From the NCBI GenBank assembly GCA_022773945.1, contig JALFNS010000019.1, positions 1 to 40,637 of the forward strand: 40,637 nt of DNA, in the 5' to 3' direction. Position numbers and translations under genes: made by a program. The stretch's first letter is position 1. Every line of letters begins with the position of its first letter. The notes below the pieces were generated by a model, which worked only from the letters and a program-made list of their open reading frames with translations, had not been told where the DNA came from and did not search any database. Below, piece after piece: positions 25,575 through 28,149 of the stretch. This DNA is from Clostridiales bacterium. GTDB taxonomy: Bacteria > Bacillota > Clostridia > Peptostreptococcales > Anaerovoracaceae.

Positions 25575-26879
25575 ATGAACAATGACAACGAATACAATAA
25601 CAGGGAAAGAAACTATCAGGAATGGGAGCCGGAGGGGCTTTACAGAGACCCTCGGGAGAGGTTTCAAAGCAGCCGTGGCTATGAAGGAGTCAATGGCGGC
25701 CCTGGCGGCCAGAATGGAGGCGGCCGAGCCACATGGCACAAAGGGGAAACAAAAGTAAAGAAGCCTTCCCCTCCTGTCAACCTGACACGCAGGAGCCTGG
25801 CCGTAATAATCGCGGCATGTCTGGTGCTCTCGTGCCTTTGCGGTCTGGGCGGCGCATGGATCGGGCTTCATGCTTCCGACAGCGACACGCCTGCATCGAC
25901 CGAAAGCGGCACTTCATCGGTTTCGAAAAGCTATACGCTGGAGGATGCCACGGGAAGCGGCATGACCGTTCAGGAGGTTACCGAGCTCACTCAGGATTCG
26001 GTTGTGGAGATTACGACTGAAAGCGTGCAGACTGACTCCTGGCTCCAGTCCTATGTAACCGAGGGTGCAGGCAGCGGTGTCATAATCAGCAAGGACGGCT
26101 ACATTATGACGAACAATCACGTGATCGACGGTGCTTCCAAGGTTACAGTCACCACCCGCGGCGGCAAATCCTATGAAGCCGAAATCGTAGGTGCCGATTC
26201 CACAAATGATGTGGCCGTTATCAAGGTCGACGCATCGGATTTAACCGCGGCAACCTACGGCAACAGCGATCAGATTAAGGTGGGCGACATGGCAGTGGCC
26301 ATAGGAAACCCTCTGGGCGAGCTGGGCGGCACGGTAACCGCCGGCATCATCAGCGCCAAGGACAGAGAGCTTACAATCGACGGGGCAACCATGAATCTTA
26401 TACAGACGGACAGCTCAATCAACCCGGGAAATTCCGGCGGCGGACTCTTCAACGATGAAGGTCAGCTCATAGGCCTGGTTGTAGCAAAGTCCTCCGGCTC
26501 CGATGTTGAGGGCCTGGGCTTCGCAATTCCTATCAACACGGCAGCCGATGTGGCAGAGCAGCTTATGGACAAGGGGTACGTAAGCGGGCAGCCTATGACG
26601 GGCATGACCTATACCGAAGGAAGCAGCGGAATAGAGTCCATGTTCGGCTCCAGCTCCGGCTCCGTATACATTTACTCCGTGGATACCGCCAAAGCCAGGC
26701 TGGCGGGATTCCGGGCAGGAGATATCGTCTTCGCCATTAACGGGGAACAGATAACTTCGATAGATGATGTCTCAGCCATCGTAACCGCACACAAGGTCGG
26801 CGACAAGCTGAAGTACACCATCGTCCGCGACGGCAAGACTAAGGATCTGACGATAACGCTGCAGGAGAAAAAGAACTAA
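25575..26879 (+). CDS. htrA: HtrA/DegP-type membrane-anchored serine protease with PDZ domain
   Basis: Quality-control protease acting outside the membrane. 434 residues: a hydrophilic Asn/Gly-rich cytoplasmic segment (1-70), one transmembrane helix (about 73-98, RSLAVIIAACLVLSCLCGLG), a Ser/Thr linker, the trypsin-like domain with His182 (TNNHVIDGA), Asp212 (TNDVAVIKVD) and Ser287 (NPGNSGGGLF), then one PDZ domain (about 345-430, AGFRAGDIVFAINGEQITS). All catalytic residues are intact. AGAGGTG precedes the ATG. Monocistronic as far as can be seen. Confidence 0.95.
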   Translation: MNNDNEYNNRERNYQEWEPEGLYRDPRERFQSSRGYEGVNGGPGGQNGGGRATWHKGETKVKKPSPPVNLTRRSLAVIIAACLVLSCLCGLGGAWIGLHASDSDTPASTESGTSSVSKSYTLEDATGSGMTVQEVTELTQDSVVEITTESVQTDSWLQSYVTEGAGSGVIISKDGYIMTNNHVIDGASKVTVTTRGGKSYEAEIVGADSTNDVAVIKVDASDLTAATYGNSDQIKVGDMAVAIGNPLGELGGTVTAGIISAKDRELTIDGATMNLIQTDSSINPGNSGGGLFNDEGQLIGLVVAKSSGSDVEGLGFAIPINTAADVAEQLMDKGYVSGQPMTGMTYTEGSSGIESMFGSSSGSVYIYSVDTAKARLAGFRAGDIVFAINGEQITSIDDVSAIVTAHKVGDKLKYTIVRDGKTKDLTITLQEKKN

Positions 26880-26880
26880 C

Positions 26881-26993
26881 AACACAGACGCACAGCGCAG
26901 CCGCAAACTCTCTCTGCCGATGCACTCATGCTTGCTGCTCGATTAACATAGATTGTCCCTGCGGAAATGCCGCTGTCACTGTGTGTCTGTGTT
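26881..26993 (+). repeat. Long imperfect inverted repeat after htrA
   Basis: Arms at 26881-26904 and 26969-26993 are near reverse complements (AACACAGACGCACAGCG... against AACACAGACACACAGTG...), giving a stem of about 22 pairs with one wobble, one mismatch and a bulge around a 64-nt loop. A short T4 run follows. It starts two bases after the htrA stop codon and could act as a terminator or mRNA-stabilising structure. Confidence 0.5.
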
Positions 26994-27007
26994 TTATAAA
27001 CGTTGAT

Positions 27008-27288
27008 TTCTGACAAAACCCCTGCTCTCACAAATATTTTGTCAGAAACCTTGACTAAGCTAAGGGATTTTCTGACAAGAATCGTGTAATTGCTATATAC
27101 TTTGTCAGAAAATCCAACCTGAAGAAGTGTTAAAAGATAAATCACGGGCAAGTTATGAGGGCTCTGTCTTGCCACCCTCCGCCATTCTGACAACGCACCC
27201 CCTTATCAGCAGAATCTTGTCAGAATTCAGCGGAACATAGTTCGGCGCTCTGACAAGAAGGGCGTCGATTTTATGGTTTTTGTCAGAG
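27008..27288. repeat. Array of eight alternating 9-bp boxes (TTCTGACAA / TTGTCAGAA)
   Basis: Boxes start at 27008, 27039, 27070, 27102, then 27185, 27217, 27248, 27280. Orientation alternates strictly; six copies are perfect and the last two match 8 of 9. Spacing is 31, 31, 32, (83), 32, 31, 32 bp, close to three helical turns each, in two groups of four. The array fills the space between htrA and the iclR promoter (last box 11 bp before the -35). No open reading frame of interest crosses it. It is best explained as an operator array for an oligomeric regulator. Confidence 0.8.
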
Positions 27289-27299
27289 ACCGGCTGCAT

Positions 27300-27328
27300 T
27301 TGGTATTTCCATTCATTTATTGTATAAT
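27300..27328 (+). promoter_or_regulatory. Sigma-A promoter of iclR
   Basis: TTGGTA (27300-27305), 17 bp, TATAAT (27323-27328). Expected start near 27335, about 32 nt before the ATG; GGGAGA serves as ribosome binding site. Confidence 0.7.
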
Positions 27329-27366
27329 GAAGATGTATCGGGTTTGCTGGTAATGGGAGAAAAAAC

Positions 27367-28149
27367 ATGAATAACGACGGTAATCTGAAGAATCCATCGG
27401 GAGTGCAGTCTGTCGAACGTTCGCTGGATATAATTGAGACAATTGCAACTGAACCTCACGGCATGGGGGTAAGCAGCATAAGTGAAGCAACCGGAATGTC
27501 AAAGAGCACTGTTCACAGGCTTCTGGCTACTCTTCTTGAACGGGGTTATGTTGAGAAAACGGAAGACAGTATCTACAAGGTCGGATTGAAATTGATCGAG
27601 GTTGCCAGCCTTTACCTGAACAGCCTGGAGCTTCACACAGAGGCTCGACCGTATATCTCTAAGATTACAAGAGATCTGGGGCTCACAGCTCATCTTGGAA
27701 TTCTGGAGGACGATCAGGTTGTATATCTTGAAAAAATGGACATCCTTTCCAGCGTGCAGCTTTACAGACAGATAGGCTTGCGAGTACCGGCATACATTTC
27801 ATCTCTCGGCAAGTGCCTTCTGATGCGCTACAGTCACGATGAACTCGAATCTGTTCTGAAAAACTGCAGTTTTCAAAAGCTGACAGACAATACCATTACA
27901 TCTATGGAAGAGTTTCATAATGAAATGAACATCGTCCGTCAGAATGGCTGGGCTATAGATGATGAAGAAAGTGCTATGGACTACAGATGCATAGGTGCGC
28001 CGATATACGACTACAGAGGCGACATCATCGCGGCAATAAGTGCAAGCGGAAATTTATCACTTATTCCGGATGAGCGAATAGAATTTGTCGCAAATTACAT
28101 AAAGGATACAGCCCTTGAAATATCAAGGGGTATGGGCTATTCAGAATGA
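27367..28149 (+). CDS. IclR-family transcriptional regulator
   Basis: 260 residues. The N-terminal winged helix (about 10-75) contains SVERSLDIIETI and GVSSISEATGMSKSTVHRLLATLLERGYVEK, standard for IclR; the C-terminal effector domain has HLGILEDDQVVYLEKM, SSLGKCLLM, NGWAIDDEESAMDYRCIGAPIYDY and IIAAISASG. Members usually sense a small carboxylate or aromatic metabolite. It probably controls the FIST and aldehyde dehydrogenase genes that follow and possibly itself, through the palindrome at its 3' end and/or the eight-box array upstream. Confidence 0.93.
   Translation: MNNDGNLKNPSGVQSVERSLDIIETIATEPHGMGVSSISEATGMSKSTVHRLLATLLERGYVEKTEDSIYKVGLKLIEVASLYLNSLELHTEARPYISKITRDLGLTAHLGILEDDQVVYLEKMDILSSVQLYRQIGLRVPAYISSLGKCLLMRYSHDELESVLKNCSFQKLTDNTITSMEEFHNEMNIVRQNGWAIDDEESAMDYRCIGAPIYDYRGDIIAAISASGNLSLIPDERIEFVANYIKDTALEISRGMGYSE

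Follow-up and report, generated by a model that had tools for sequence, protein, structure and literature searches.

The array of eight alternating boxes at 27008–27288 of the window (the whole 40,637-nucleotide stretch of Clostridiales bacterium DNA that was analysed) is one copy of a multicopy family in which the cores of the complete copies are invariant, the helical phase is conserved and the neighbouring genes are unrelated. The array is absent upstream of five iclR genes of the same genus, and parallel families with other boxes were found. It is probably not a switch of its neighbouring gene, but a dispersed docking array for a putative DNA-binding protein. The explanation that we prefer, and whose probability we place at about the midpoint of the scale, is that four dyad sites form an array, dispersed in intergenic DNA, at which a putative trans-acting dimeric protein, joined into a higher-order complex, would bend or loop the element.

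Re-measurement of the array placed eight alternating copies of TTCTGACAA (F) and TTGTCAGAA (R) at 27008 (F), 27039 (R), 27070 (F), 27102 (R), 27185 (F), 27217 (R), 27248 (F) and 27280 (R), as described in the initial annotation. The start-to-start distances of 31, 31, 32, 83, 32, 31 and 32 bp agreed with the spacing given there, as did the count of six perfect 9-mers among the eight boxes; the two remaining boxes carried one outer-base change each (CTCTGACAA and TTGTCAGAG). The 11 bp gap between the last box and the TTGGTA-17-TATAAT sequence from 27300 was likewise found as annotated, this sequence being a consensus match only. Similarity to most type A copies, as measured by blast, started at about 27005 and ended at 27287. 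The features are listed below; types A and B are the two spacing types of complete copies and are defined in the following section of text.

27005–27288, + strand: eight-box element, one of 10 type A copies and one of 15 complete copies; limits from similarity and alignment
27008–27047, no strand: dyad unit 1 (F1 27008–27016, R1 27039–27047)
27070–27110, no strand: dyad unit 2 (F2 27070–27078, R2 27102–27110)
27111–27184, no strand: central spacer from R2 to F3, about ten bases (one helical turn) shorter in type B
27185–27225, no strand: dyad unit 3 (F3 27185–27193, R3 27217–27225)
27248–27288, no strand: dyad unit 4 (F4 27248–27256, CTCTGACAA; R4 27280–27288, TTGTCAGAG)
27300–27328, + strand: promoter-like TTGGTA-17-TATAAT before iclR, outside the element; consensus match only
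27367–28149, + strand: iclR, a neighbour gene not shown to belong to the array (PF01614, 1.1e-45; PF09339, 2.8e-19)
25575–26879, + strand: htrA-like protease gene, the neighbour on the other side (PF13365, 4.3e-35; PF13180, 1.1e-12)

The sequence before the array, at 26900–26990, is a dispersed repeat that is partly common to contigs C11, C18, C6 and C16, and a 15-nt inverted repeat lies at 26881–26895/26979–26993. Box matches with at most one mismatch numbered 20 in the window, compared with a mean of 10.1 and a largest value of 19 in 100 shuffles. No array of at least three units was found in 2-mer-shuffled DNA (sets of three, three and one shuffles). A chance origin of the array was rejected, the clustering of the boxes rather than their number being the improbable part.

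The genome that contains the window (G000) is a draft of 1,833,293 bases (1.83 Mb) in 50 contigs, for which simple open reading frames served as gene calls. A search of it for exact chains of three 7-bp cores in the order F-R-F gave 31 forward and 31 reverse matches, the forward matches corresponding to 15 complete eight-box arrays (two each) and one half array of four boxes at C2:85718 (one). The array copies were also recovered by blast using the window region. Ten complete copies have a distance of 85 or 86 between the core starts of R2 and F3 (type A), and the other five a distance of 75 or 76 (type B). Eight further loci contain only two F-R pairs each, 157–178 bp apart (type C; L118:5981, L119:6046, L122:238, L128:3367, L129:6075, L130:5857, L132:5871 and L133:5493); two of these elements have changed cores, and some inner segments seemingly extend the palindrome. 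A single F-R pair on C33, with one changed core and similar to unit 4, is likely to be a remnant.

The genes flanking 14 of the 15 complete copies were codirectional in eight cases, converging in four and diverging in two, as classified from the simple ORF map with family-less ORFs of up to 170 aa ignored; the C13 copy, near a contig end, was left unclassified. On C34 the last box and the end of the glycerate kinase ORF share six bases. Pfam matches at E <= 0.001 were obtained for 23 of the 30 neighbouring ORFs scanned, and their functions are unrelated. They include htrA/iclR, HSP90/HTH, DUF5714, GNAT/glycerate kinase, DUF1836/amino-acid permease, an ABC protein, saccharopine dehydrogenase/LeuA, argininosuccinate synthase/lyase, a GdpP-like protein, a BspA-like protein, AdoHcyase/class I tRNA synthetase and thiolase/aminotransferase.

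The initial annotation had read the array as an operator upstream of iclR. As the operator of the adjacent IclR regulator it would control iclR-FIST-ALDH. The position of the array fits this reading, with 78 bp between its end and the iclR start and 11 bp to the promoter-like match, but the same layout occurs 15 times in the genome beside unrelated genes. The proposal also implied that the array would track with iclR in related genomes. An iclR match at E <= 1e-30 was present in six of the 48 other genus genomes, and five of these loci include upstream DNA, the sixth being cut by a contig end. None of the five carries an array upstream of iclR, either by exact cores or by a word-free scan. FIST is kept next to iclR in two of these array-less loci, and it adjoins the closest iclR relative, which is 75% identical and belongs to genome G019. 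Absence of the boxes upstream of orthologous iclR genes and their scatter through the genome were the two computational outcomes that the initial annotation had named as speaking against its proposal, and both were observed.

The IclR-family sites set out in PMC8222616 resemble the array in having inverted half-sites, and in some groups three alternating boxes. The half-sites described there are about 1–6 bp apart, with the consensus GKTYCRYW3-4RYGRAMC or TGRAACAN1-2TGTTYCA, whereas the boxes of the array are 22–23 bp apart and by eye resemble neither consensus. The operators of that source also have two or three boxes, compared with eight here, and the array, although upstream of an iclR gene in the window, is not linked to iclR in other genomes. 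Given the 15 dispersed copies, the absence from all five iclR upstream regions and the wrong half-site distance, the IclR operator was rejected, and we regard it as highly improbable.

All 120 boxes of the 15 complete copies contain a perfect CTGACAA or TTGTCAG core. An alignment of the 15 copies, which were gathered by box searches and blast, a procedure that bears on the core invariance, had 56 of 56 core columns invariant compared with nine of the 236 other columns, as counted from the column list. Mean identity outside the cores was 75% within type A (66–91%), 43% within type B (30–53%) and 45% between the two types. Among the matches listed for R-N24-F with at most three mismatches, 27 of 57 were perfect, three had one mismatch and 27 had two or three, compared with eight having two or three mismatches in the reversed-pattern control. 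The corresponding numbers among the matches listed for F-N23-R were 37 of 57 perfect, seven with one mismatch and 13 with two or three, compared with five in the control. These imperfect pairs are in part type C elements and chance matches, and decayed copies may be among them. Apart from the half copy, no type A copies with lost cores were found by blast at E <= 1.

The distances between core starts in the complete copies are 29–31 bp from F to R and 32–33 bp from R to F. Successive F boxes are separated by 61–64 bp within a half, equivalent to six helical turns, and by 105–106 or 115–116 bp across the centre, equivalent to ten or eleven turns. The central gap thus has two sizes, one helical turn apart, which distinguish types A and B. 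The best common period of all box positions in the 15 complete copies was 10.45 bp, and no clear phase was seen in the type C pair distances (157–178 bp). The initial annotation had deduced from the strict alternation and constant phase that a protein contacts one face of the DNA. This part of its interpretation fits the data, because all 15 complete copies retain the geometry and the steps of other box families, described below, lie near multiples of 10.5 bp; the contact would not be that of an operator of this iclR.

Further arrays were sought by word-free scans for alternating inverted words, which covered stretches of G000 and of other genomes. The TGTATCT family of G000 has 18 exact F-R pairs in eight arrays, five of which contain five units with steps of 62–64 and 82–84 bp; the units were hand-picked from a list that also held shifted and mismatched alternatives, and the boxes are less perfect than the TTCTGACAA boxes of complete copies. 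The same genome contains one five-unit array of TGTACACG with steps of 74–75 bp. A TACGATA family forms two three-unit arrays in each of the genomes G019 and G030, with steps of 82–83 and 71–72 bp. Both TACGATA arrays of G019 adjoin a three-unit TCGATGA array with equal steps. They are joined at 61–62 bp unit to unit (L263:2922–3330 and L260:4692–5099), in opposite orientation at the two loci, giving one six-unit element with two box words. G019 also contains a four-unit TTCTATA array (F-R 41, steps of 72, 61 and 72) and a three-unit array with 73-bp steps that resembles plain tandem repeats. Arrays with other layouts were seen in G033 (53-bp steps) and G080 (86-bp steps). No arrays were found in the stretches read from G017, G044, G032, G024, G008, G025 and G028, and single matches of family words in G008, G028, G036 and G044 look like chance.

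The step lengths, sorted into sixteen classes that represent five box families, cluster at 10.5 bp (R 0.89), and none of 20,000 random sets was as good; the classes were hand-chosen with one value per homologous step, and the 53, 73, 74–75 and 86 bp steps were left out. A GATTT/AAATC motif occurs inside 39 of 136 units, compared with about 10 expected, when summed over several families; since the motif is not general, nothing was built on it. On contig C29 (L134:6017–11557) a leu gene run lies between two array families, with TTCTGACAA before leuA and TGTATCT after leuB; LeuA was identified by Pfam, and leuC, leuD and leuB were recognised by eye. On contig C1 of G000 (L255:4581–7194) two TGTATCT arrays lie about 1.5 kb apart with the TGTACACG array between them. 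Behind the second lie two ORFs with PF12784 matches, which are pieces of an Rpn-type nuclease gene with one stop inside, and behind the first an ORF without a Pfam match that resembles the nuclease end only by eye; this ORF and the nuclease pieces are apparently a duplication.

The Rpn-type nuclease (PF12784) was tried as a general cognate factor and failed: two matches were obtained in G000 but none in G019 or G030, although both of these genomes contain arrays. None of the five words tested forms an array beside the other PF12784 gene (L264). The search gave no cognate protein for the arrays. Taken together, the families could be examples of a new and general kind of chromosomal element, in which three to six dyad sites form an intergenic array with a common architecture (boxes about 30 bp apart, units at whole helical turns) and the box word differs by family and lineage. 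Each word would then behave as if it had its own reader among the members of a rapidly evolving DNA-binding protein family, which would assemble a wrapped or bridged complex at many chromosomal positions. Both parts of this proposal are put forward together and tentatively, at clearly less than even probability.

Another reading of the paired boxes is that the array is a hairpin element of the REP/BIME kind, acting as RNA or single-stranded DNA, in which F-R pairs form stems that affect termination or mRNA stability. Three of the four partner pairs in the window array have complementarity extending to 12–14 bp, shuffled sequences fold less well than either strand (z -4.57 and -4.03), and one terminator-like site lies inside the array at 27242–27268. 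The RNAalifold covariation term was only -0.48, however, and no core pair covaries in the 15-copy alignment since the core pairs never vary; invariant pairs alone speak neither for nor against RNA structure. A single compensated sequence was seen in each of three pairs that lie outside the cores. Within a unit, the bases beside the boxes were not clearly more complementary than in random same-family pairing (136 units, seven groups). Because flank complementarity does not exceed that of random pairing and the cores do not covary, the sequence rather than the pairing seems to be recognised. The inner segments of 21–24 nt also argue against hairpins, and an RNA needs neither a helical register nor a one-turn change of the central gap. 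Rfam gave only two weak listings, both far below gathering scores, and a known RNA family was rejected. Since any F box of an array is able to pair with any of its R boxes, pairing with several partners might likewise keep the boxes invariant within one array. The invariant, sharp-edged cores and the helical register favour sequence-specific recognition over pairing, and the hairpin reading is considered unlikely.

In distribution and alternation the array nevertheless resembles REP and BIME elements. As described in PMC3733652 and PMC2817692, these are small palindromic units, alternating in BIMEs, which lie in intergenic DNA and mostly between unidirectional or convergent genes; some REP families are species-specific and several types may occur in one genome, a distribution (PMC3733652) that would favour the hairpin reading. 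The array shares the intergenic position, the alternating units and the species specificity of the RAYT-associated GTAG and CGTC families. It differs in having no GTAG or CGTC tag beyond chance, the 8-bp unit flanks containing GTAG/CTAC in five of 136 units and CGTC/GACG in eight of 136, where chance is about 0.075 per unit. The box of 7–9 bp fits the REP stem of 5–13 bp given in Table 1 of PMC3733652, but the inner segment of 21–24 nt, and that of 34 nt in the TTCTATA array, exceed the loop of 2–20 nt listed there. Further differences are the fixed unit number, the helically phased spacing and the invariant core of the complete copies.

The CTGACA of F1–F4 is used by four of the six promoter-like matches in 26850–27450, which raised the reading that the array is a promoter cluster with each F box as a -35 element. 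Inspection by eye showed no conservation of the -10 positions from copy to copy, four copies lie between converging genes, and other families have boxes (TGTATCT, TACGATA) that are not -35-like. We therefore give this reading very little credence.

Exact F-R pairs of the full box were found in one of 49 genus genomes and one of 197 family genomes, in both cases the genome of the window, and the 7-bp three-box chain in one of 49 genus genomes. Scanning genome contigs gave one stretch, JALFXR010000152.1 (L046; MAG Bacillota bacterium SUG1106), which is 100% identical to C23 over 3,283 bp and contains all F-R pairs of its assembly in this one array. Because of this identity it is very probably DNA of the same organism, and one of the two bins (SUG1106 or G000) probably includes misassigned DNA. 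The flanks of the C31B and C39B copies align to stretches of G019; no array is present at those stretches, and no clean empty site was defined.

No blastn match to the window array was obtained in plasmids or phages, no record similar to the TGTACACG array in plasmids and none similar to the TACGATA/TCGATGA arrays in phages. No viral contig contained the 8-bp three-box pattern; five contained the 7-bp pattern in different layouts, and looser words of other families occurred in 22, 6 and 2 viral contigs. A rescan of these viral stretches and the earlier five gave only one chain (L268), which is built from an unrelated word at 42-bp steps. Two viral stretches (L111:6556–6704 and L113:9893–9993) contain TTGTCAG/CTGACAA repeats at mostly 21-bp steps, which are iteron-like and unrelated in layout. 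As no similar records were found, a phage or plasmid origin was rejected. Among the listed titles and abstract openings of the open-access literature searched, none described this layout.

The confinement of this multicopy, intergenic family to one genome of the genus would also fit a non-autonomous, MITE-like mobile element, in which the boxes are transposase binding sites without a host role and only intact elements move. Similarity between copies ends at the outer boxes, which form inverted repeats at the element ends; several box families are patchily distributed among congeners; and, on C1, a TGTATCT array is followed by the remains of a PF12784 ('nuclease family transposase') gene. The 15 copies gave no clear target-site duplication signal, however, with no clear excess over mismatched pairs for offsets of -12 to +15 per side and lengths of 2–11. 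Pfam scanning of the TTCTGACAA array neighbours gave one transposon-named domain only, HTH_Tnp_2, in a protein next to the C1 copy. This candidate was rejected; it lies in front of a LytTR response regulator and so looks like part of a regulatory operon. No transposase-bearing relative of the TTCTGACAA family was seen in about 355 kb of genome read. Every core is kept in all 15 copies despite the far-diverged type B spacers, which would not be expected of old, dead copies, and four internal dyad sites exceed what a terminal repeat needs. ERIC, Correia, RUP, RPE and MITEs are described in PMC2229807 as dispersed short intergenic elements without genes, and in these features they resemble the array; the array differs in having four internal dyad sites instead of one terminal inverted-repeat pair, and in the lack of a detected target duplication. 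On balance the mobile-element reading is judged rather doubtful.

The preferred explanation, a phased protein-binding array, has an architectural parallel elsewhere. Plasmid centromeres are phased multi-site protein arrays in which repeated boxes lie on one helical face and the architecture is kept while the box differs between systems, and the array resembles them in each of these respects. It differs in being present as 15 dispersed chromosomal copies, and no partition gene was found among the Pfam-scanned array neighbours. The element is thus a dispersed palindromic repeat that may work like a phased protein-binding array.

Under the preferred explanation each element would consist of four two-fold symmetric sites, each made up of the box CTGACAA, 22–23 bp and the inverted box. 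Since the sites are at helical multiples, boxes of the same orientation would lie on one face of about 270 bp. A putative DNA-binding protein would bind each F-R site as a dimer through the boxes, and the four bound dimers could then associate, forming a single higher-order complex by which these 270 bp are bent or looped. The copies would have spread between genes in the manner of REP/BIME or miniature elements, the boxes would be kept by selection for binding, and the role may lie in chromosome organisation, silencing or the element's own spread. From the patterns in the DNA we infer recognition by protein and not by RNA, the dimers, the joined complex and selection at each copy. The less regular relatives, namely the type C loci, the C33 unit and the half copy, count against this explanation.

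Small intergenic repeats are usually regarded as hairpin or transposon debris. In this family something seems to read the sites, because all 120 cores are intact, the rest of the element has a mean identity of 43–75% and the spacing is in register. The presence in one genus of several families with different boxes and a common geometry suggests that the word read by the recognition system changes from lineage to lineage. Identification of the reader protein would reveal either dispersed looped arrays that organise or silence DNA, or a mobile element of unusual structure.
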